Assembly (NCBI GenBank): GCA_031285975.1
Contig: JAITVE010000359.1
Coordinates: 1 to 14,576, forward strand
Source of the DNA: Candidatus Adiutrix sp.
Lineage (GTDB): Bacteria; Desulfobacterota; Desulfarculia; Adiutricales; Adiutricaceae
Direction of reading: 5' to 3'
DNA: 14,576 nucleotides
In this document: in pieces, positions 1,267 through 12,263 of the stretch
Numbering within the stretch: position 1 is the stretch's first letter
Layout: each line of letters opens with the position of its first letter
Notes under the pieces: generated by a model
Told to the model about the DNA's origin: nothing
The model's database searches: none
What the model saw: the letters and a program-made list of their open reading frames with translations, nothing else
Made by a program: the position numbers and the translations under genes

Positions 1267-2415
1267 TCACCCCATTTTCTGATACGAAAGCTTGTCCAGC
1301 GTCTCCAAAGCGACGTCGATTTCGGCGGCGGTGTTGAAAATGCCGAAGGAGAACCGCGTCACGCCGCCGGAGGCCAGGCTGCCCAGGGCCTGGTGGGCCA
1401 GGGGCGCGCACTGGAGCCCGGCGCGGGTGAGGATGCCCGCCTCCCGTTCCAGGGCCGCGGCCAGGTCGGATGACGACCAGCCGCCGAGGGTGACGGCCAC
1501 CGTGGAGACCCGCTGCTCCAAGTCTGTCGGCCCCCAGACGGCGGCCCCTTTGATTTGGGCCAGGCCGTCCAGGAACTGGCCGGTGAGATTCATGTCGTGG
1601 CGGCGGATATTCCGGGGCCCGGTTTGGCGCACGAAGGTGGTGCCGGCGGCCAGCCCGGCCAGGCCGTGGGTGTTGGCGGTGCCCGCTTCCAGCGCATCCG
1701 GCAGGAAGTCGGGCTGCGTGAGGCTCTCGGAAGCGCTGCCGGTGCCGCCGGTGGCCAGCGGGCGCAAGGCTAATCCCTCACGCAGCCAGAGGCCGCCGGT
1801 GCCGGTGGGGCCCAACAGGCTTTTGTGGCCGGTGAAGCACAGGTAGTCCAGCCAGGTGCCGACATCTTCCAAGTCCATAGCCCCGGCGGTTTGGGCAGCG
1901 TCCAGGAGCATTGGGACGCCGCCGAGGGCCTCTTTAATGGCGCGGGCCGGGGCCAGCGCTCCGGTGACGTTGGAGGCGTGGTTGACCACCGCCAGCTTGG
2001 TGGCGGGGCGCAGGAGTTTGCGGAAATCTTCGGGGGAGGATAGGCCGCGTCCGTCCACGGGGGCCACGTCCCAGAGTATGCCGCGCTCGGCCACCAGGCG
2101 GGCCAGGGGGCGGGCCGCCGAGTTGTGCTCCAGGGCGCTGGAAATAACGTGGTCGCCCGCTTTCAGGCCGCAGCCTTCCAGCACGGTGTTGAGCGCCCAG
2201 GTGATGTTGGCGGTGAAGGCCAGGCGGCGGTTGTCCGCCAAGCCGAAAAGTTTGCTCAAATTTTTCCGCGCCTGGTGGATGGTGCGGGAGGCCGCCAGGG
2301 AGGCCGCGTGGCCGCTGCGGCCGGGGCTGGCCGGGGCGTTCAGGGCGGCGGTGACGGCCTCGATAACTTCCGGCGGCTTGGGGAAGGACGTTGCGGCGTT
2401 ATCCATGTAAATCAT
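1267..2415 (-). CDS. Class-V aminotransferase / cysteine desulfurase (EGC1-type)
   Basis: A PLP enzyme of 382 residues, probably releasing sulfur from cysteine (or a related substrate) as a persulfide. Visible family features are the N-terminal YMDNAAT (3-9), the PLP-stacking His97 in LEHNS, N149 in NHASN, Asp172 and Gln175 in LDAAQTAG, the Schiff-base lysine K198 in FTGHKSLLGPTG, and the candidate catalytic cysteine C336 in RAGLQCAPLAH. The RAGL.CAPLAH block is typical of the 'cysteine desulfurase family protein' subgroup (TIGR01977) rather than classical IscS or SufS. The start at 2415 is used because its ATG overlaps the TGA of the upstream gene as ATGA, implying translational coupling; an upstream extension of 26 residues looks like read-through of the neighbour in another frame. 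It is the last gene of a gltX-led operon. The coupling suggests it feeds sulfur to, or builds the cluster of, the NadA-like protein. Confidence 0.85.
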   Translation of the reverse strand: MIYMDNAATSFPKPPEVIEAVTAALNAPASPGRSGHAASLAASRTIHQARKNLSKLFGLADNRRLAFTANITWALNTVLEGCGLKAGDHVISSALEHNSAARPLARLVAERGILWDVAPVDGRGLSSPEDFRKLLRPATKLAVVNHASNVTGALAPARAIKEALGGVPMLLDAAQTAGAMDLEDVGTWLDYLCFTGHKSLLGPTGTGGLWLREGLALRPLATGGTGSASESLTQPDFLPDALEAGTANTHGLAGLAAGTTFVRQTGPRNIRRHDMNLTGQFLDGLAQIKGAAVWGPTDLEQRVSTVAVTLGGWSSSDLAAALEREAGILTRAGLQCAPLAHQALGSLASGGVTRFSFGIFNTAAEIDVALETLDKLSYQKMG

Positions 2416-3278
2416 GCGTTCACCCCCTCGCCCAGATACGCTTCCAGGCGGGTCACCATTGATTTGAGGTTGGTCAGCTTCATGTTGGGGCAAAAAATTT
2501 CCGCCTCGGTTTCGTGGAAATTTTTGCCTGGCAGGGCGGAAGCCAAATATTCAGCCAGCCCGGCCTCGCTGACAATGATGAATTCCGGCCCCGCGCTCTC
2601 GGCGCAGAAATGGAAAATATCGGCGCTGTCGCCCACGAAGTCGGCCATCGCCAAGAGCTCAGGGCGGCAGAGGAGGTGCGCGGCCACGGCGGCTTCCGGG
2701 TGCTCGGCTTTGGCGGCGGCCAGTTCTTCGGGCAGGGCCAGCTCGTGCACCTGACAGGCGGCTTTGGGCCAGCGGTGCACCACCTGATGGGCGAACCCGG
2801 CCCAGTCGGCCAGCTGCGGGCCGGGCAGCACAATGAGCTCCCGCCCCTCCGTCCCGGCCAAGGCTTCGCGGGCCGTGGCCGGGGCAATCTCCAGGTCGGC
2901 CAAATCGCGCAGTTCCGGGGTGACTTTGATATCCGCCACCACCAAAGCTTCCGGGTGAAGCCGCTTGGCTTCCAGCACTTCGGCCCGGCTGACGGCCTCG
3001 GCCAGGGGGCAGGAGAGGTCGGCTCGGGGCGTTAAAACCCGGGCCGCCGGGTGACGTCGCCCGATTTCAGCGGTCATATAGGAAGCCCCGCAGACCATCA
3101 CCGCCGGGGCTTGGCTGGCCACGGCCCGCGCCACAATCTGCCCCGCCCCGCCGACAAAATCGGCGGCGGCTTTCACTTCTTCCCGCTGGAAGAAGTGGGC
3201 CAGAATCTCCACCCGGCCTTGGGCGGCCAGTTCTTTCACCCGCTGGAACTGGGCCTTCTTTTTGTCGTTGAGCTCCAA
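2412..3278 (-). CDS. Divergent NadA-like Fe-S protein
   Basis: The 288-residue length fits the short quinolinate synthases (about 300). The three cysteines that bind the [4Fe-4S] cluster in NadA align: C90 (DLSCPLAE), C175 (AACQVHE) and C263 (FCPNMK), with spacings 85 and 88, close to those in Thermotoga maritima (87, 86). Other shared blocks are AHFFQ (27-31), CGASYM (63-68), MADFVGDSA (211-219) and NMKLTNL (265-271). Several residues known to be catalytic or substrate-binding in NadA appear changed. The AHYYQ tyrosine is Phe30, the HPE motif is His201-Leu202-Leu203 (no Glu), the VTYVN segment reads VADIK (Tyr lost), the first GDS is GGAG, and the SSN loop is PAT. It is therefore unlikely to make quinolinate normally. 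The start is a TTG with only a weak GGGG upstream, 14 bp after gltX; its stop overlaps the desulfurase start. Function inferred only as an Fe-S enzyme or sulfur carrier. Confidence 0.75.
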   Translation of the reverse strand: MELNDKKKAQFQRVKELAAQGRVEILAHFFQREEVKAAADFVGGAGQIVARAVASQAPAVMVCGASYMTAEIGRRHPAARVLTPRADLSCPLAEAVSRAEVLEAKRLHPEALVVADIKVTPELRDLADLEIAPATAREALAGTEGRELIVLPGPQLADWAGFAHQVVHRWPKAACQVHELALPEELAAAKAEHPEAAVAAHLLCRPELLAMADFVGDSADIFHFCAESAGPEFIIVSEAGLAEYLASALPGKNFHETEAEIFCPNMKLTNLKSMVTRLEAYLGEGVNA

Positions 3279-3292
3279 GGGCGACCCCGTTT

Positions 3293-4681
3293 TTAAGCGC
3301 GGAAGGCCAGGGCCGCGTCGATGCGCTTCAGGTTTTTTTCCGGGCCCAGAATGTCCAGAATCTCAAACAAACCGGGGCTGGCGGTCTGGCCGGTGAGGGC
3401 CACGCGCAGGGGCTGGGCCACGGCCCCGAGTTTGACCGCTTTTTCCTCGGCTAGGCGGCGCAGCAAATCCTCAAAGCCCTGGGCGGTGAGGGGTTTGGTC
3501 AGCACGTCTTTCATGGCCAAAAGCATGGCCTGGTTGTCCGGGGTGAGGAATTTTGTGGCCGCTTTGGGGTCTAAGGGCGGCAACTCCTGGAAGTAAAACT
3601 CGGCTTTGTCGGCCAGTTCCACCAGGGTCTTGCCGCGCTCCCGCACGGTGTGGGTGATTTTTACGAGGGTCTCGGCGTCTGGTTTGGCATAGCCCTTTTT
3701 TTCCAGATAGGGCCAGAACAATTCGCCCAACGCTTCGGGCGGGGTTTCTTTGATGTAGTGGCTGTTGAGCCAGTCCAGCTTCTCGGGGTTGAAAACACCG
3801 GCGGAGCGGCCCACGTGGCTGAGGTCAAAGAGCTCCCTCATTTCGTCCAGGCTGAAAATCTCCTGGTCGCCGTGAGACCAGCCCAGGCGGGCCAGGTAGT
3901 TGTTCAGGGCCTGGGGCAGGTAGCCCATCTCTTTGTAGGCCATGACCGAGGTGGCCCCGTGGCGTTTGGAGAGCCGGGTCTTGTCCGCCCCCAGAATCAT
4001 GGGCACGTGGGCGAACTGCGGCAGGGCCGCGCCCAAAGCCTTGTAGAGCAATATCTGGCGCGGGGTGTTGTTCACATGGTCGTCGCCCCGCACAATGTGG
4101 GTGATGTTCATGGTCACGTCGTCCACCACCACGGCCAGGTTATAGGTGGGCATCCCGTCGCTTTTGAGGATAATCAGGTCGTCGAGCTCGCGGTTGTCAA
4201 ACACCACCGGGCCTTTGATAAGGTCTGTCCAGCCGGTTTCCCCAGCCTCGGGGCCTTTGAAGCGCACCACCGCGCCGGGGGCCGGGCCGAGATTTTTTTC
4301 GCGGCAGAGGCCGTCATACTTGGGCTTGCCCCCGGCGGCCAGGGCGGCCTGGCGGCGCTCTTCCAAGTCTTCGGGTTTGCAGTGGCACCAATAGGCCTGG
4401 CCGGAACTGAGCATTTTGTCGATATATTCCCGGTGCAGGGCCAGCCGCCGGGTCTGGTAAACGGGCTCGCCGTCCCAGTCCAGGTTCAGCCAGGTCATGG
4501 CCGAGAGAATGGCCTGGGTAAATTCCTCGGTGGAGCGCAAAGCGTCGGTGTCTTCAATGCGCAGCACGAAGCGGCCGCCCAGTTTGCGGGCCAAAAGCCA
4601 GTTGAACAGGGCTGTGCGGGCCCCGCCGATGTGGAGGTGGCCGGTGGGGCTGGGAGCGAAGCGGGTGACTATCTGGGTCAT
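3293..4681 (-). CDS. gltX: Glutamyl-tRNA synthetase
   Basis: This enzyme charges tRNA(Glu) with glutamate in the cytosol using ATP. The 462-residue product has the class-I signatures: RFAPSPTG (7-14) leading into the HIGH variant HIGG (17-20), RIEDTD (41-46), and the KMSKS-type loop KTRLSKRHG (234-242). A Cys cluster, C99-x-C101 and C126, sits where many bacterial GluRS bind zinc. The region after about residue 300 matches the helical anticodon-binding part. The start at 4681 is chosen because MTQIVTRFAPSPTG is the usual N-terminus; in-frame sequence upstream to 4801 is unlike any GluRS and crosses the divergent promoter region. It heads the minus-strand operon with the NadA-like and desulfurase genes. 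The sequence does not show whether it is discriminating or non-discriminating. Confidence 0.96.
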   Translation of the reverse strand: MTQIVTRFAPSPTGHLHIGGARTALFNWLLARKLGGRFVLRIEDTDALRSTEEFTQAILSAMTWLNLDWDGEPVYQTRRLALHREYIDKMLSSGQAYWCHCKPEDLEERRQAALAAGGKPKYDGLCREKNLGPAPGAVVRFKGPEAGETGWTDLIKGPVVFDNRELDDLIILKSDGMPTYNLAVVVDDVTMNITHIVRGDDHVNNTPRQILLYKALGAALPQFAHVPMILGADKTRLSKRHGATSVMAYKEMGYLPQALNNYLARLGWSHGDQEIFSLDEMRELFDLSHVGRSAGVFNPEKLDWLNSHYIKETPPEALGELFWPYLEKKGYAKPDAETLVKITHTVRERGKTLVELADKAEFYFQELPPLDPKAATKFLTPDNQAMLLAMKDVLTKPLTAQGFEDLLRRLAEEKAVKLGAVAQPLRVALTGQTASPGLFEILDILGPEKNLKRIDAALAFRA

Positions 4682-4846
4682 GGAGAGGCGCCTTTTCAAT
4701 AATAATGGCGGCCGGTTTCGGGCCGCTGGTGAATATAAAAAAGTACCATAGTTCAGAAGGCCATGCAAGTTCCAAAGCGCGTTTGCGCTACACTCTGGCA
4801 AATGAACGGGATTTATTGTATATTATACTGAAAAAAAAGGAACGCT
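4682..4846. promoter_or_regulatory. Divergent intergenic promoter region
   Basis: These 165 bp separate gltX (-) from the membrane-protein gene (+) and are AT-richer than the flanks. On the plus strand, overlapping AT-rich -10-like hexamers (TATATT, TATTAT, TATACT) lie at 4819-4829, followed by AAGGAA at 4838-4842 just before the ATG; no good -35 stands at the right distance. On the minus strand, TTGCAT followed 17 nt later by TACTTT could serve gltX, but the match is weak. A small palindrome AGCGC-GTTT-GCGCT spans 4776-4789. No coding sequence was seen. Confidence 0.4.
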
Positions 4847-5368: not shown

Positions 5369-5764
5369 TCAGCACCGGCGAATGAGAAGGACAGGGGCTG
5401 GGTACATCGCCAGTGTTGCGTCGGAAGTGACAAGGCTTAGGTTCTCTGTCTTGGCCTGAGCCAGAAGCAGGCGGTCGAAGGGGTCTTTGTGGACCAGGGG
5501 GAGGTCGCTTACGGCGGTGGTGTGCAGCCCGGTAATGGCCATTTCGCGGTAGCCCCGTTCCAGAAGCTGGCCCCGCAGAATTTTTGCGTCCACCTGGAAG
5601 TCCGGGCGGTTTTGGGCGCTCTTGATCGCCACTTCCCACAGGCTGGCCGGGCTGAAATACATATCGTTGTCTTCATCGGCGATAAGTTGCCGGGCTTGCC
5701 CTGGCAGCAACTCGGGCCAGAATGTGGCCCAAATTACCATTTGGGTATCCAGCAGTATTTTCAT
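5369..5764 (-). CDS. PIN-domain toxin (VapC-like RNase)
   Basis: A 131-residue PIN-domain protein, probably the ribonuclease toxin of a type II toxin-antitoxin pair. The four acidic residues expected to bind the metal are visible: D6 in LLDTQ, E44 in SLWEVAIK, D97 in HKDPFDR and D115 in TSD. The 'LLDT..vIW', 'S.aSLWEvAiK' and 'H.DPFDRlLlAQA' blocks are typical of the PIN subgroup paired with Phd/YefM antitoxins (Sll0205-like). Its ATG overlaps the antitoxin TGA by four bases (ATGA), so translation is coupled and antitoxin is made first. It appears full length with an intact active site. The RNA target cannot be read from sequence. Confidence 0.9.
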   Translation of the reverse strand: MKILLDTQMVIWATFWPELLPGQARQLIADEDNDMYFSPASLWEVAIKSAQNRPDFQVDAKILRGQLLERGYREMAITGLHTTAVSDLPLVHKDPFDRLLLAQAKTENLSLVTSDATLAMYPAPVLLIRRC

Positions 5765-6006
5765 TCCCGGCCCTCAAACATGGCGCTAATCACTTCGCGG
5801 CCTATGGATTTGACGTCAACGTCCTTTCCCACAACTCCCTGGCCGCGCATAAAGCCCAGCCGCCTTGATTCCTTGGGCTCCGCATAGGGCAAGACTTTGA
5901 CCAGAGGCGTATCGTTATCGGCAATAATAAAGCCCTCCCCGTCTTTGGCCTGTTTCACCAGTTCCAAGAGGCGCTCTTGCGCTTCGTTTAAATTGATGGT
6001 CAGCAT
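5761..6006 (-). CDS. Phd/YefM-family antitoxin
   Basis: An 81-residue antitoxin, first gene of the pair. The N-terminal half, INLNEAQERLLELVKQAKDG (4-23) followed by GFIIADNDTPLVKVLPY, has the Phd/YefM layout of a helix, then a beta hairpin that dimerises and binds DNA. The C-terminal half (REVISAMFEG) is the short helix expected to wrap the toxin. A strong AAGGAGG site lies about 7 nt upstream of the ATG. Proteins of this family repress their own operon together with the toxin; the promoter and two palindromes just upstream (6047-6091) fit that. Confidence 0.88.
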   Translation of the reverse strand: MLTINLNEAQERLLELVKQAKDGEGFIIADNDTPLVKVLPYAEPKESRRLGFMRGQGVVGKDVDVKSIGREVISAMFEGRE

Positions 6007-6836: not shown

Positions 6837-8129
6837 ATGATTATCACGTGCGGTCAGTGCCAGGCCAAGTTCAAAGTCGCGCCTGAACAGATCAAGGAAA
6901 CCGGTTCCAAAGTCCGTTGTTCCAACTGCCGGTATGTTTTCACGGTTTACCGCCCCCAGCGGCCCGTGGAAGCGGCGGCTCCGGCGGTGGACGACTTTAG
7001 GGAGAGCGGGCCGGAGCAGGATGATTATTACGGCCCCGCCGACGCCGGGCGAACGGGCCGCGTGCCGGACGATTATGACGACAGCCCGGACGACCGGCCC
7101 TCTGACGACCCGGCGGCCCTGAAAGAACGGCGCGACCGCCGCCGCCGTCTGTACGAAGACATTGAAAATTCCGCCGACAGCGGCTTTGACGACGACGACC
7201 AACCGGAAGACGATTATGGCGACGACGACTTTGACGATGAGCAGGGCGGCCTGCCGCCCCTGCGCCGCAACCGGGGCCGCCAGTCCTCGGCCATGATGGC
7301 CGAGCCGGAAGACGAAGGCTACGACGACTCCGAAGAGTATGACGACGACGAGTACGAGCGGGACGACCGGCCCGAGCGCGTTGCCGCGCCCCAGGGCGAC
7401 CTGGGCCTGGGGGCCGACCCCGTGGAGGGCGACGACGCGCCCGAAGAGGGCAGCGGCGAAGACCCCTTCGCCCGCCTGGCCGCCGGGTATCGCGGGCAGA
7501 AGGGCTCGGGCCGGGGCGGCTCCCGCGGCAAGTCCAAGCTGCTGGCCGGGCTGGCCATTTTGGCTGCCCTCCTGGCCGTGGGCATTTACTTTTTGACCGG
7601 GCCGCAAGACGCGCTGATTACCGGCGACGAAACCCCCGCCGCGACCACCACCACCGCCGCCGGTTCCGAAGGCGCGGGCGGCGCGGGAACCGACGCCCCG
7701 GCCCCGGACGCTGGAACGGCAGACCCCAACGGCACCCTGCGCATTGGCTTCACCGAAGGCCAGCAAGGGTATTTCTACCGCACCAATACAGAGGCGGGCA
7801 ACATTCTCATCCTCACCGGCCAGGTGCGCAACAACTACTCCGAGCCGCGCAGCTTCGTGTATTTGCGCGGGCACCTGCTGTCAACCGATGAAACCACCCT
7901 GGCCGACCGCTTCGCCTATGCCGGGAACCTGTTGTCCGAAGAAGAACTGAAGACCCTGCCGATGCGGGAAATTGCCACCCGCCTGCTGATTAAGGGCGGT
8001 CGGGATAACGTCAACGTCAACATCCCCCCCGGCACGGAAGTTCCCTTCATGATGGTGTTCGACAACGTGCCCGACGGCACCGACCAGTACCGCATTGACG
8101 CGGTGAGTTCCGAACCGGCCCAGCAGTAA
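6837..8129 (+). CDS. Zinc-ribbon transmembrane protein with DUF3426 domain
   Basis: A 430-residue protein in four parts. Residues 1-38 are an MJ0042-type zinc ribbon (C5-x2-C8 and C28-x2-C31, with CG.C...F....I...G..VRC..C...F). Residues 50-215 form a low-complexity, extremely Asp/Glu-rich and probably disordered linker, broken by an Arg-rich patch at 98-104. A basic Gly-rich stop and one membrane helix lie at about 235-254. A Thr/Ala/Pro-rich spacer precedes a C-terminal DUF3426 beta-sandwich domain (296-430) with ILTGQVRNNY, FAYAGNLLSEEEL and PPG.EVPFMMVF. The ribbon is predicted cytosolic and the DUF3426 domain periplasmic. GGAGG at 6824-6828 supports the start. The gene follows hpt by 15 bp. 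The family has no established role; one protein binding metal or nucleic acid inside and something outside the membrane is inference. Confidence 0.85.
   Translation: MIITCGQCQAKFKVAPEQIKETGSKVRCSNCRYVFTVYRPQRPVEAAAPAVDDFRESGPEQDDYYGPADAGRTGRVPDDYDDSPDDRPSDDPAALKERRDRRRRLYEDIENSADSGFDDDDQPEDDYGDDDFDDEQGGLPPLRRNRGRQSSAMMAEPEDEGYDDSEEYDDDEYERDDRPERVAAPQGDLGLGADPVEGDDAPEEGSGEDPFARLAAGYRGQKGSGRGGSRGKSKLLAGLAILAALLAVGIYFLTGPQDALITGDETPAATTTTAAGSEGAGGAGTDAPAPDAGTADPNGTLRIGFTEGQQGYFYRTNTEAGNILILTGQVRNNYSEPRSFVYLRGHLLSTDETTLADRFAYAGNLLSEEELKTLPMREIATRLLIKGGRDNVNVNIPPGTEVPFMMVFDNVPDGTDQYRIDAVSSEPAQQ
7722..8126 (+). repeat. DUF3426 domain copy A
   Basis: First of four related domain-encoding segments. 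A 36-nt block at 8067-8102 is identical to 8637-8672 in copy B, and 7797-7819 is identical to 8367-8389. Both are offset by 570 nt, showing recent duplication or gene conversion rather than only protein-level conservation. Confidence 0.8.
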
Positions 8130-8150
8130 GCGCGGCGGGAAGCAAAAAGT

Positions 8151-9152
8151 ATGGACGCGCCGCCGGTGAAAGACACCCGCCTGAAAATCGCTGCTTCGGC
8201 GTATGCCAGATTGTCGCTGGCAATCGCCCTCTTGGCGTTGTGCCTTGCTTTCGGCGGCGGGCTGGCCCTGGCGGCGGAACAGGACGACCCCAACGGCACT
8301 CAGTACATCGGCTTTACTCAAGCCGATGGGGCGCAAGGCTATTTCTATCGCAAAAATAACGAGGCTGGCAACATTCTCATCCTCACCGGAATAGTTCGCA
8401 ACAACTATTCCGAGCCGCGCAGCTTCATTTATTTGCGCGGGCACCTGCTGTCTTCCGACGGAAAAACTCTGGCTGACCGCTTTGCCTATGCCGGGAACCG
8501 GCTATCTGAAGAAGCGTTAACGAGCCTGCCAATAAAAGAAATCACCGCCCGGCTTTCAGTGAAGAGCGGCAACGATAACGTCAACGTCAACATCCCCCCG
8601 GGCGCGGAAGTGCCCTTCATGGTGGTGTTTGACAATGTGCCCGACGGCACCGACCAGTACCGCATTGACGCGATAAGTTCCGAGCCGGGCGCAGTTGACC
8701 CCTCGAAGCCGGTGACCGCGAAGGCAAAGCATTCCATGATGTCGGGCACCTCCAGCGGCGACCCGGATATTGGTTTTTTAGAAGACCGGCTGAGCTATTT
8801 TTACCGCACCAACAAAGAGGCGGGCACCATTCTCATCCTCACCGGGCTGGTGCGCAATAACTATTCCGAGCCGCGCAGTTTCATCCGTTTGCAAGGCCAC
8901 CTTCTGGCTGCCGATGGAAGCAGCCTGGTTGACCGCTTCGCCTATGCCGGGAACCAACTCTCTGAGGAAGAACTGACGACTCTGCCAGTAAACGAAATCG
9001 TCGCCCGGCTTTTAGCGAAGAACGGCAAAGAGAACGCCAACGTCAACATCCCCCCGGGCAAAGAAATCCCCTTCATGATAATGTTCGACAATTTGCCCGC
9101 TGGCATCGATGAATATCGCGTTGACGCCGTCAGTTCCGAAGCGGCCCAGTAA
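8151..9152 (+). CDS. Exported protein with two DUF3426 domains
   Basis: A 333-residue protein with no zinc ribbon or anchor. It starts with a signal peptide: a basic n-region to R20, a hydrophobic core LSLAIALLALCLAF, and likely cleavage after ALA (residues 39-41) before AEQDD. Two DUF3426 domains follow, residues 46-181 and 204-333. Each carries the YFYR.N.EAG.ILILTG.VRNNYSEPRSF, DRFAYAGN.LSEE and VNIPPG.E.PFM blocks, separated by a short Pro/Ala linker. The first domain is nearly identical to the domain of the preceding gene. The start has only a weak GCGGGAAG upstream, 21 bp after the previous stop. It is predicted periplasmic. Function is unknown; it could bind the same ligand or partner as the anchored paralogue. 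Confidence 0.82.
   Translation: MDAPPVKDTRLKIAASAYARLSLAIALLALCLAFGGGLALAAEQDDPNGTQYIGFTQADGAQGYFYRKNNEAGNILILTGIVRNNYSEPRSFIYLRGHLLSSDGKTLADRFAYAGNRLSEEALTSLPIKEITARLSVKSGNDNVNVNIPPGAEVPFMVVFDNVPDGTDQYRIDAISSEPGAVDPSKPVTAKAKHSMMSGTSSGDPDIGFLEDRLSYFYRTNKEAGTILILTGLVRNNYSEPRSFIRLQGHLLAADGSSLVDRFAYAGNQLSEEELTTLPVNEIVARLLAKNGKENANVNIPPGKEIPFMIMFDNLPAGIDEYRVDAVSSEAAQ
8286..8693 (+). repeat. DUF3426 domain copy B
   Basis: Second domain copy, closest to copy A in both protein and DNA (identical blocks at 8367-8389 and 8637-8672). It carries a two-residue insertion near the start (QADGAQGYF against EGQQGYF). Confidence 0.8.
8760..9149 (+). repeat. DUF3426 domain copy C
   Basis: Third copy, in the same gene as copy B. 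It keeps VRNNYSEPRSFI, DRFAYAGN and NVNIPPGKE but differs more in the first strand and the C-terminal segment (LPAGIDEYRVDAVSSEAA). Confidence 0.8.
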
Positions 9153-9189
9153 GCGTGGCCGGAGACCAGAAAATAGGAGCGCACTGCCG

Positions 9190-9816
9190 ATGACAAGGAA
9201 CAGCTTGAAAATCATGGTCTCGGCCTATGCCCGCTTCCTTCTGGCCGCCGCCTGGCTCATGCTGTGCCTTGCTTTCGGCGGCGGGTCGGCTGTGGCTGGT
9301 GACCTCGAACCGTCCAAGCCAGTGCCGCCGCCAAAATCGGTGACGGTGCAACCGAAGGTAACGGAATCGGCAGTGCCGAAGCCGGAAACTGCCAAAGCGT
9401 CAGGCCGTTCCAACAGTGACCCGTATATCGGTTTTATCGAAGTGCCGTTGACTTTTTATTACCGTGAAAACAAAGATGCTGGGCGTCTTTTAATTTTTAC
9501 CGGCCAGGTGCGCAACAACTACCCCGAGCCTAGAAGCTTCATTTATTTGCGTGGCTATCTTTTGTCCGGTAATGGAGAACCCGTGGCCGAGCGTTTCGCC
9601 TATGCCGGGAATCAACTGTCCGAAGAAGTGTTAACCCATCTGCCCATGCAAGAAATCACCACCCGCCTTTCGATTAAGAGTGGCAAGGATAACGCCAATC
9701 TCAGCATCTCACCCGGCGCGGAAATTCCTTTTATGATGGTTTTCGATGATGTGCCCCAAAGCGCTCAAGAATATCGCTTTGATGTCGTTAGTTCCGAACC
9801 GGCGGGTGAACGATGA
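9190..9816 (+). CDS. Exported single-DUF3426 protein
   Basis: A 208-residue protein. A signal peptide (basic start, ARFLLAAAWLMLCLAF core, likely cleavage after AVA at 34-36) is followed by a Pro/Lys-rich linker (40-70) and one DUF3426 domain (77-205). The signal peptide DNA is closely similar to that of the preceding gene (around 8238-8261 and 9261-9284, shared CTTGCTTTCGGCGGCGGG), so the whole gene was probably duplicated, not just the domain. The ATG at 9190 is chosen for AGGAG at 9175-9179 and because it begins the signal peptide; in-frame sequence upstream overlaps the previous gene. The domain is the most diverged of the four (FYYRENKDAGRLLIF, ISPGAEIPF). Its TGA overlaps the next ATG (ATGA), coupling it to the acyltransferase gene. 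Confidence 0.82.
   Translation: MTRNSLKIMVSAYARFLLAAAWLMLCLAFGGGSAVAGDLEPSKPVPPPKSVTVQPKVTESAVPKPETAKASGRSNSDPYIGFIEVPLTFYYRENKDAGRLLIFTGQVRNNYPEPRSFIYLRGYLLSGNGEPVAERFAYAGNQLSEEVLTHLPMQEITTRLSIKSGKDNANLSISPGAEIPFMMVFDDVPQSAQEYRFDVVSSEPAGER
9418..9804 (+). repeat. DUF3426 domain copy D
   Basis: Fourth and most diverged copy. It keeps VRNNYPEPRSFIYLRG, ERFAYAGNQLSEE and PFMMVFDDVP. DNA identity to the other copies is scattered rather than in long blocks. Confidence 0.75.
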
Positions 9817-12263
9817 AGGGCCGCTTCCATCCGCTGCTGGCCAAGCCCGCTATGGCCTTTTTTAAACGCTTCGACTTTGTGGATTTTTTGACGAAACTGT
9901 CAAAGCGCGAGCCGGGGGCCAGCTATGCCGCCCGGCCCGACCTGCCGCCCCCGGCCTTCCCGGATCAGGAAGATATTGCCCGCCTGGCCGTGGATTTGGC
10001 CGAACGCTCGCTGGCCGAAAAGGGCGAGCCCGTGGGCCGCCGGGAGCTGGAGACCCAGGCCTCCATCATCTCCTGCCGCTACGACGCCGACCTGCACCAG
10101 ATGCTGCGCGGCGCGGCCATGAACATCATCTCCCAGCTTTTTGAATCACGCGACCAGGCCCGCCTTTTTACCTCCAATGACGGGCGGGAACTCAAAAATT
10201 TCGAGCGCCTCAAAAAAGCCGGTGAGGAAGGCCGGGGCGTGGTCTATCTCATCAACCACTCCTCCCACTGGGACGAGTTCATCTTCAACGTGTTCCTCGA
10301 CCAGAACAACCTGGCCATGCCCCTTTTCGCCGCCGGGCAGAACATGATGGCCACCCCCAGCCTGACCCGCCTGTTCATGGTCGGCTCCTACGTCATTGTG
10401 CGCTCCGGGGCCGGGCGGGCCTATCTCTCAACGCTGTACCATTATTGCCAGGCCCTGGGTGAGCTCGGCAAGCCCCAGGGCATTGTCCTGGAAGCCTGGT
10501 CGGGCGGGGCCCGCACCCGCGACGGCAGCTTGCGCTATCCCCGCCGCCTCATTGCCCTGCAAGGGGCCTTGGCCGCCCGCAACGATGTGCTGGTGCAGCC
10601 GGTGGTCATCAGCTACAGCCGGGTGCCGGAGGATTTGGGGCTCTCCGAGGGCGAGGGCCTGGCCTCCTGGCTCAACGGGAACCACTGTTTGGGCGAAGTC
10701 CTCAAGCGGCCTTGGGAGCCGAAGGAAAGCGTTATCCGGGGCCTGAAAAACCTTTTTGGCCGCACTTACGTGGGCTTTGGCCGGGGGCGGCTGGTCTCCG
10801 AACTGGCCGCCGAGCAGGCCGAAAGCGGGCCCGCCGAACTGACCCTGGACGAGTACGCCTCCCTCTACGCCATCAAGGAAATCGCCCGCGACAAAAAAAT
10901 CATGACCAGCCAGGTGGCCGCCCGCAGCCTTCTGGGCCGGGGCGGGAGGGCCGCTCCCGGAACGGGCCGCGCCGGGAAAACCGTTGACCTGGCGGAATCA
11001 GCCGTCAAGGCCATGGAGGAAATCCGCGATTATCACCGCCGCACCTTCAGCCAGGAGCCGGATTTCGAGGATTTTTTCCAGGAGCACACCCTGGAAGAAG
11101 CCCTGAAAGACGGCCTGGAATCGCTGAAAGCCCGCAAGGTCATTGGCCGCCGCCCCTTGTTTTCCAAGCGGCTGCCGAAAATTAAAGCGCCCCACGGCCT
11201 GGCCTATTACGCCACCCACGCCGACCGGCGGCTCTACAGCCCCTCGGCCAAGGAAAACTTTGTGGTCTGCGGCTCCGAGGCCTGGGCCTTCGGCCTGGTT
11301 TCCTACCTTGGCCGCCGCACGCTGAGCGACAAGAAATACAACAATTCCAGCCTCACCCTCTACGACCGCGACGAAGCGGCCATGGCCTTTTTGGCCTACG
11401 AGCGCACCCAGGCCGAAAAATTTCCCGGCTACCGGCTGCCCAAAAACATTTTCCCCACCCACGACCACACCGCCGCCTTCCGCAAGGCCACCGAGGTCAT
11501 TGTGGCTGTGCCGCCGTGGCGGGTGGACGAGATGCTCAAAATCATCCTAACCGAGGCCCGCGAACTGCGCAGCCTGATTATCGCCAGCCGGGGCTTCGAC
11601 CCCCAGTCCCACCGCCTGACCATGCAGATAGCCTGGGAGGCGGCCGTGTCCGCCGGGCGGCCGAAAATTGATATCCTGGCCTTGAACGGCCCCTTCAGCC
11701 CCAATGCCTTAATCGGCAACGACGGCGGCCTGTGGACTCTGGCCGGGCCGGTGCGCGGGGGCCGGGCCTCGGAGGCGCTGCTGTTCAAATTCGGCAGCTT
11801 CCGGGTCAGCACCAGCCCCGACCCCATTGGCGTGCAGACGGCGGCAGCCCTGGCTGACGCTTACGCCCTCTACGGGCATTATGTGGAACGCCAGCGCAAG
11901 CTCCGCTCCCAGCCCTTTGAAGCGGCGGCCTTCCTGCGGGAAGTCAGCGCCGAGGCCAAAAGCCTGACCCTGGCCCTGGGCGGCCAGCCCCAAACCTTTG
12001 AGGCCGACAACCCGGCCTGGATTTCCGAATTCATCATCCGCTCCCTAAGCGGCGCGGGGCCCTCCCCGGCCTGGCTGAACACCCTGAAAAGCGACGGCGC
12101 GGGCGAGGGCGCCCCGGCCCGGCGCGAACTGGCCGAAGCCTGGCCCGACCCCTGGGCCGCCGGATATTTTTCCATCCACTCCGCCTACCTCACCGCCAAG
12201 CACCTGGGCCTGACCCTGCCCCACCTGGAAGAAGCCAACCGCTTGTTCTGGTCGCAAGGCTGA
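9813..12263 (+). CDS. PlsB-like acyltransferase fused to GpsA-like module
   Basis: An 816-residue two-module protein. The N-terminal half resembles glycerol-3-phosphate acyltransferase PlsB: the HX4D catalytic motif is NHSSHWD (H149-D154), followed by VIVRSGAGRAYLSTLYHY (194-211) and the substrate-binding block LEAWSGGARTRDGSL (226-240). A linker (375-480) leads to a region following NAD-dependent glycerol-3-phosphate dehydrogenase (GpsA): ENFVVCGSEAWAFG (481-494), YRLPKNIFPTHD (540-551), VIVAVPPWRVDEML (562-575), SRGF (592-595), LNGPFSPNAL (624-633) and DPIGVQTAAALADAYAL (670-686). Key GpsA residues appear replaced: the lysine of KG is R593, the lysine-asparagine of ALKN is A681-D682, and the GxGxWG glycines are partly lost. 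Oxidoreductase activity is therefore doubtful; a G3P-binding, regulatory or scaffolding role is inference. ATGA overlap with the gene before; 13 bp to the permease. Confidence 0.8.
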   Translation: MKGRFHPLLAKPAMAFFKRFDFVDFLTKLSKREPGASYAARPDLPPPAFPDQEDIARLAVDLAERSLAEKGEPVGRRELETQASIISCRYDADLHQMLRGAAMNIISQLFESRDQARLFTSNDGRELKNFERLKKAGEEGRGVVYLINHSSHWDEFIFNVFLDQNNLAMPLFAAGQNMMATPSLTRLFMVGSYVIVRSGAGRAYLSTLYHYCQALGELGKPQGIVLEAWSGGARTRDGSLRYPRRLIALQGALAARNDVLVQPVVISYSRVPEDLGLSEGEGLASWLNGNHCLGEVLKRPWEPKESVIRGLKNLFGRTYVGFGRGRLVSELAAEQAESGPAELTLDEYASLYAIKEIARDKKIMTSQVAARSLLGRGGRAAPGTGRAGKTVDLAESAVKAMEEIRDYHRRTFSQEPDFEDFFQEHTLEEALKDGLESLKARKVIGRRPLFSKRLPKIKAPHGLAYYATHADRRLYSPSAKENFVVCGSEAWAFGLVSYLGRRTLSDKKYNNSSLTLYDRDEAAMAFLAYERTQAEKFPGYRLPKNIFPTHDHTAAFRKATEVIVAVPPWRVDEMLKIILTEARELRSLIIASRGFDPQSHRLTMQIAWEAAVSAGRPKIDILALNGPFSPNALIGNDGGLWTLAGPVRGGRASEALLFKFGSFRVSTSPDPIGVQTAAALADAYALYGHYVERQRKLRSQPFEAAAFLREVSAEAKSLTLALGGQPQTFEADNPAWISEFIIRSLSGAGPSPAWLNTLKSDGAGEGAPARRELAEAWPDPWAAGYFSIHSAYLTAKHLGLTLPHLEEANRLFWSQG

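Follow-up and report, generated by a model that had tools for sequence, protein, structure and literature searches.

The NadA2 gene and its desulfurase neighbour

We analysed a stretch of 14,576 nucleotides from Candidatus Adiutrix sp. (contig JAITVE010000359.1 of assembly GCA_031285975.1; hereafter the window), in which the gene for a divergent homologue of NadA, here called NadA2, adjoins that for a cysteine desulfurase (Table 1). Pfam places the protein in NadA (PF02445) at 165.9 bits (E 1.5e-48, cut-off 27), and it falls below the NCBIfam equivalog cut-offs for quinolinate synthase, scoring 122.1 against 262.9 for TIGR00550 and 165.8 against 294 for NF006878. NadA2 is predicted to adopt the NadA fold, and a Foldseek search returned 19 matches at E <=0.001, all of which are NadA. 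PF02445 was the sole Pfam match at E up to 1, with no PP-loop ATP-pyrophosphatase domain, the hallmark of the TtuA/NcsA/LarE [4Fe-4S] sulfurtransferases. Annotation as NadA goes by homology, and several database records call NadA2 a quinolinate synthase; despite such names, it is very probably not one.

We compared the locus across 37 genomes of the family Adiutricaceae (G000-G036), seven from the window's genus and 30 from other genera. The desulfurase gene lies directly downstream of NadA2 in 32/32 testable loci (26/26 in other genera and 6/6 in the window's genus), and in the window its ATG overlaps the NadA2 stop codon by 4 bp (ATGA). Motif-based placement located it at 31 of 34 loci, two others being truncated by contig ends and L048 being recovered by tblastn. 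At these 31 loci the nearest desulfurase start gave a 4-bp overlap in 13 and a 17-bp overlap in 9, while the remaining 9 ranged from a 35-bp overlap through a gap of about 310 bp. K198, presumably the lysine that holds pyridoxal phosphate, is conserved in 31/31 desulfurases and C336, which by its role in the family we take to be the catalytic cysteine, in the 30/30 that have a letter there. Several operon desulfurases of other genomes score slightly below the TIGR01977 cut-off (345.8 to 373.6).

Table 1. Features of the NadA2 locus, with positions counted from the first letter of the window.
Feature	Position	Strand	Details
NadA2, divergent NadA-fold protein	2412..3278	(-)	288 amino acids; TTG start at 3278, TGA stop 2414-2412
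Cys90 codon, first cluster cysteine	3009..3011	(-)	C in 34/34 NadA2, 30/30 canonical
Cys175 codon, second cluster cysteine	2754..2756	(-)	C in 34/34 NadA2, 30/30 canonical
Cys263 codon, third cluster cysteine	2490..2492	(-)	C in 33/33 NadA2 rows with a letter, 30/30 canonical
Asp116-Ile117-Lys118 codons, canonical Tyr-Val-Asn replaced	2925..2933	(-)	Codons and alignment
His201-Leu202-Leu203 codons, canonical His-Pro-Glu replaced	2670..2678	(-)	Codons and alignment
Cysteine desulfurase (TIGR01977)	1267..2415	(-)	381 bits, cut-off 377; ATG 2415-2413
gltX (Glu-tRNA synthetase-like, named by eye)	3293..4801	(-)	Open reading frame, 14 bp upstream of NadA2

Kept cluster cysteines, replaced pocket and family tree

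Residue counts were taken from a 64-row alignment of 34 NadA2 and 30 canonical NadA proteins, with the window codons checked; the L053 row is partial, since this G008 gene has an in-frame stop and was kept as is. In alignment with solved NadA structures, Cys90, Cys175 and Cys263 fall on the cluster cysteines, whose role as ligands we take as given, and their invariance (34/34, 34/34 and 33/33 among rows with a letter at the site) means that their retention is not due to chance. An earlier note, made from these letters without database searches, had described a NadA homologue that conserves these three cysteines, and this description holds. His28 and His178 likewise show no variation in either set among the rows that cover them.

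The rest of the site is different. All 30 canonical proteins carry Tyr116, Asn118, Ser133, Asn135, His201, Pro202 and Glu203, the tyrosine, asparagine, Ser-x-Asn and His-Pro-Glu that we take to be the active-site residues of quinolinate synthase, and NadA2 lacks this combination. Position 116 is Asp in 21/34 NadA2 rows, position 118 is Lys in 33/34 and Arg in one, position 201 is Asn in 29/33 and His in 4/33, and position 203 is Leu in 30/33 and Met in 3/33. His201 is kept in the window's NadA2, and outside the window's genus this position is Asn in 27/27 rows. The missing His-Pro-Glu is not an alignment slip, as the earlier note had argued: the segment runs ungapped in two comparisons, one of them against solved NadAs (the top chain, 6ora, reads HPQ and the next two HPE), which excludes that explanation.

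Each replacement that the note had named is present in the window, namely F30, GGAG (43-46), D116 for Tyr, PAT (133-135) and H201-L-L, and two of them proved not to belong to the family as a whole. Position 30 is Tyr in 26/26 rows outside the window's genus and divided within it (F3/Y3), and position 45 is Ser in 24/26 rows outside and A3/S2/T2 within; F30 (3/6 rows) and A45 (3/7 rows) are confined to that genus. On the sequences compared, the Tyr30 and Ser45 losses are local and not features of the NadA2 family. The other replaced residues stay replaced across the alignment. NadA2 is further invariant at R32, G44, P84, R85, D87, D217 and E260, where canonical NadA varies or differs, and its rebuilt pocket has its own set of invariant residues (R32, R85, D87, K118, D217 and E260). 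A pseudogene reading was ruled out by these invariant residues together with the co-conserved operon described below.

A maximum-likelihood tree of 67 proteins is divided by a 100/100 branch with a long stem: the 31 NadA2 rows fall to one side and the 36 canonical rows, including two actinobacterial ones, to the other. Homologues of the window's protein therefore fall outside canonical NadA, an outcome that the earlier note had left to be checked. The tree was midpoint-rooted, so that no direction of change is read from it, and does not include three truncated NadA2 rows (L079, L074 and L050). Across the 37 family genomes, PF02445 detects NadA2 in 34, canonical NadA in 31 and both in 28; the coexistence of the two copies in these 28 genomes and the separate clade of NadA2 tell against its being a NadA in function. 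The three canonical-only genomes are 61, 74 and 64% complete. NadA2 occurs without a canonical copy in six genomes (G000, G002, G003, G011, G024 and G030). Thus the second, canonical nadA for which the note had proposed to look is common in the family and absent from the window's own genome, which is 77.9% complete, has NadA2 as its only NadA copy and gave no nadB or nadC match, so that nothing marks it as a prototroph for nicotinamide adenine dinucleotide (NAD).

That NadA2 has remained a quinolinate synthase whose active site is unusual seems to us scarcely credible. A residual NadA role finds its best argument in the gene content of the finished chromosome G003, which carries NadA2 and nadC and neither canonical nadA nor nadB. 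Yet nadB, the usual source of iminoaspartate, is itself missing there (aspartate dehydrogenase was not searched for), the family as a whole has other residues in place of the Tyr, Asn, Pro and Glu of the site, and canonical NadA stands alongside in 28/37 genomes. As a separate observation, several family genomes (G011, G018, G023, G026, G029, G032 and others) have a second NadC-like gene that is weaker, at about 92-175 bits, and misses the nadC cut-off.

We also searched beyond the family. Across 26 class genomes outside it, the NadA2 profile gave no match of full-length NadA2 strength: the best reached 231.7 bits at a canonical locus, and the others also lie at canonical loci, except that in G440 (202 bits), a genome outside the canonical-locus scan. 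Full-length NadA2 copies score 340 to 451 and truncated or split copies 144 to 320 per piece, so the profile score alone cannot tell a split copy. In two protein searches, with 8000 candidates scored in each, matches dropped from NadA2 straight to canonical proteins. In one of these, the NadA2 proteins of other genera among the matches listed were P0075, P0076 and P0082, far fewer than exist; since only part of the NadA2 proteins was recovered, carriers outside the family are possible. Within genus g7, the NadA2 open reading frames (L056, L073, L076, L077 and L078) are 358-444 amino acids long, with profile matches split in mid-protein (L056 also has one NadA2-profile split) and a second part that is longer or diverged.

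A conserved operon and its YedF-containing relatives

In 27 genomes of the other genera, tblastn revealed one gene order on one strand around NadA2, comprising five genes: c2 (24/27), c3 (26/27), NadA2, the desulfurase (26/27) and a carrier of the selenium/sulfur-carrier family PF11823 (25/27). All seven partner misses fall at contig ends, and in the two genomes that miss the carrier, contigs C324 of G016 and C183 of G031 have desulfurase sequence at their start and a PF11823 gene after it. The desulfurase with its 4-bp overlap and the PF11823 carrier of other genera support the sulfur side of the note's suggestion, which was of a new enzyme or sulfur carrier built on the NadA fold.

The gene c2 encodes TPR repeats and a cysteine-bearing C-terminal domain, and c3 a methyltransferase (the sequence sets cover 17/19 c2, 17/18 c3 and 22/34 NadA2 rows). 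The best Pfam match of c3 is FtsJ at 31 bits, with one representative typed (L071), and a c3-like gene (187 bits) is present in G038, of a sister family, where neither c2 nor NadA2 stands beside it in L113. In c2 at L071:6944-7891 (-) and its relatives, the C-terminal domain carries invariant cysteines (GGCLGD ... GPCDCH). This domain was found in 5/395 phylum genomes, all five within the NadA2-bearing family, and its named matches, a minority of all, are from Deltaproteobacteria or Ca. Adiutrix. DUF2695 matches it weakly in 11/17 members (best E 0.014), and the AF2 model of c2 has a pLDDT of 86.1 and a pTM of 0.54.

A desulfurase tree (31 operon copies and 10 others) united the operon copies in one group (100/99), whose sisters (99/97) are found in G037, G039 and G040, members of two further families of the order. 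The outgroup of 10 rows is without G000:C174, missed in the selection of open reading frames, and without L135, which falls under the 150-bit limit, and several of its branches are long; the sister relation is starred and deeper relations were not used. The sister enzymes sit in compact same-strand YedF-desulfurase-PF11823 triads at 3/3 loci, where YedF matches TIGR03527 in 3/3 (214 to 223 bits, cut-off 110), the carrier PF11823 in 3/3, and the desulfurase TIGR01977 in the 2/2 tested. These triads use the same desulfurase and carrier families as the NadA2 operon. In contrast, the NadA2 locus has no YedF and carries NadA2, the TPR protein and the methyltransferase instead, and it is kept without SelD. 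In Adiutricaceae, NadA2, together with c2 and c3, thus takes the position that YedF, a TusA-DsrE protein, has in these relatives.

The company of this desulfurase and carrier raises selenium. Both TIGR01977 and DUF3343/PF11823 are linked to selenium by genomic context (PMC2276186, PMC5322559). SelD exceeds its cut-off in 19/37 family genomes and is present in all three sister-triad genomes. A selenium route, in which the TIGR01977 enzyme, as a selenocysteine-lyase type, passes selenium to NadA2, would build on this, yet it is very unlikely. Outside the window's genus, 14 of the 30 genomes carry PF11823 while SelD stays below its cut-off, and in 13 of these (G007, G010, G012, G013, G015, G017, G019, G020, G022, G024, G026, G030 and G033) exactly one PF11823 gene is present, the operon copy. 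Several of the thirteen are 74 to 87% complete, and G007, G013 and G015 reach 91, 93 and 96%. The fourteenth, G036, has two PF11823 genes, one sharing its contig with a SelD fragment (47.8 bits). YedF exceeds its cut-off in 0/13 of the SelD-less genomes, with weak matches limited to the TusA-like part, and no TIGR03527 match above cut-off lies on NadA2 contigs. YedF and SelD themselves agree in 35/37 genomes (18 with both; YedF only in G002, SelD only in G031), and genes for another desulfurase, SelD, YedF and PF11823 are clustered apart from the operon, for example in G003 and G004. The NadA2 operon does not track SelD and is independent of both SelD and YedF. On this distribution we mostly rejected a selenium module; the absence of SelD excludes selenophosphate but leaves room for other uses of selenium.

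Within the window's genus, G003 and G004 have c2 and c3 grouped at another locus, G005 has a c3 fragment, and PF11823 genes occur away from NadA2 in 7/7 genomes. Around these PF11823 genes we observed an aminotransferase-like open reading frame, named by eye, at L092 and L093, and a 398-amino-acid frame, likened by length alone, at L114, L116, L119 and L122.

The gltX-like gene upstream of NadA2 was ruled out as a functional partner, as such a gene precedes NadA2 only in L047 among the 25 of 33 other loci whose gene order was drawn; the tblastn comparison of the operon genes took in the remaining eight. At 9813-12263 (+), a frame of 816 amino acids joins a PF01553 acyltransferase (residues 135-267) to a PF01210 glycerol-3-phosphate dehydrogenase N-terminal domain (residues 486-627), as if two steps of phospholipid synthesis had been fused. 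The region 6837-9816 (+) encodes a zinc-ribbon/DUF3426 protein followed by two frames that, by eye, repeat its C-terminal domain of about 100 amino acids, with two copies in 8151-9152 and one in 9109-9816, an apparent local domain amplification. At 5369-6006 (-), a PIN-domain frame overlaps a Phd/YefM-like one (below the Pfam cut-off), likely a toxin-antitoxin pair.

A candidate sulfur relay on the NadA fold

Compared with NadA itself (PF02445; Thermotoga maritima 4p3x, Pyrococcus horikoshii 4zk6), NadA2 shares the fold, the length, the three cysteines, H28, H178 and the Met-Lys after Cys263. It differs in Asp116 for Tyr, Lys118 for Asn, the loss of Ser-x-Asn and Pro-Glu, Asn201 for His (His in the window), its separate clade and its different operon. 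IspH and Dph2, which we take to be relatives with one cysteine per domain, gave no sequence match from NadA2 and act on different substrates. The [4Fe-4S]-dependent sulfur enzymes TtuA, NcsA, LarE and TudS have folds that we take to differ from that of NadA2; a cluster held by three cysteines and leaving one iron free, as demonstrated in TtuA and TudS, would be common to all. TtuA also has a sulfur-carrier partner (TtuB) and an active-site lysine, for which Lys118 would be the counterpart in NadA2.

Enzymes with a three-cysteine [4Fe-4S] cluster are known to bind sulfur at the free iron: TtuA receives sulfur from TtuB at its unique iron and depends on Lys137 (PMC7138817), and a [4Fe-5S] state was proposed as an intermediate in TudS (PMC10611767). 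NcsA, LarE and CyuA also appear among [4Fe-4S] sulfur enzymes. A crystal of NadA with 4-mercaptophthalate exists, by the title of its entry (6i0k). Among the open-access papers listed, none links a NadA paralogue to a cysteine desulfurase, which is a weak negative.

The kept cysteines, the replacement of canonical pocket residues in the second and third parts of the protein, the lysine at the old asparagine site and the coupling to a sulfur source together favour sulfur transfer at the open iron. NadA2 probably moves or inserts sulfur rather than making NAD, and we hold with about even confidence that this paralogue of NadA has been neofunctionalised and now relays sulfur as a [4Fe-4S] enzyme. 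Under this proposal, the overlapping desulfurase would draw sulfur from cysteine as a persulfide and the small PF11823 protein would carry it. The three-cysteine cluster, its fourth iron free, would then bind the sulfur in a [4Fe-5S]-type state and hand it on to an acceptor seated in what is, in NadA, the substrate pocket. By analogy with Lys137 of TtuA, Lys118 may help to free the sulfur from its carrier, and the methyltransferase and the TPR/DUF2695-like protein might act on the product or present it. For NadA2 we infer the cluster, the binding of sulfur, the role of Lys118 and the direction of transfer alike, and a methylated product from c3 alone.

Several observations weigh against a relay of this kind. 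No ATP-binding domain was found in NadA2, unlike in TtuA, which uses ATP, and in LarE, and this bears on how the acceptor would be activated. Lys118 is Arg in the finished genome G003, and Asp116 gives way to Gly, Glu, Thr or Gln in 13/34 NadA2 rows. In the window's genus, c2 or c3 adjoins NadA2 in 0/6 testable loci and the carrier in 0/5, and no c3 was found in four of the seven genomes, the window's included (G000, G001, G002 and G006), so that c2, c3 and the carrier are dispersed or dispensable there. Membership of the operon may also reflect a mere supply of desulfurase sulfur for building the NadA2 cluster.

This last point leads to the main rival, which we regard as unlikely: a non-redox lyase or condensing enzyme acting on another small molecule, with the open iron as a Lewis acid like that of NadA and with the desulfurase and carrier supplying sulfur only for its cluster or for a later step. 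We know of no requirement for a PF11823 carrier in cluster assembly, which counts against such an enzyme, and the TusA-like YedF at the NadA2 position of the sister triads points to sulfur handling. Still less probable is a non-catalytic Fe-S protein, be it a scaffold, a sensor or a regulatory desulfurase subunit. The desulfurase directly downstream in all testable loci, overlapping in most, and the loss of the classical catalytic residues would suit it, but the new invariant charged residues (K118 in 33/34, R85, D87, D217 and E260) answer no obvious need of a scaffold.

The sulfur-relay proposal extends, more tentatively, to the origin of the module. It is possible, at somewhat less than even confidence, that in Ca. 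Adiutricaceae the NadA fold was recruited in place of the TusA-like YedF, giving a putative new kind of sulfurtransferase. Its open-site [4Fe-4S] cluster on the NadA scaffold would accept sulfur from the PF11823 protein for insertion into RNA or a small molecule, to be modified next by the methyltransferase.

NadA2 would show how, in nature, the fold of an Fe-S enzyme can change its chemistry while the cluster ligands are kept, with the donor side in the same operon, and this makes the re-use of an open-site cluster for sulfur transfer directly testable. PF11823, which has no characterised function and mostly comes up in connection with selenium, gains a SelD-independent set of partners. These bacteria live in the termite gut; if NadA2 did replace YedF, the operon would represent a new thio-metabolite pathway in termite-gut symbionts.
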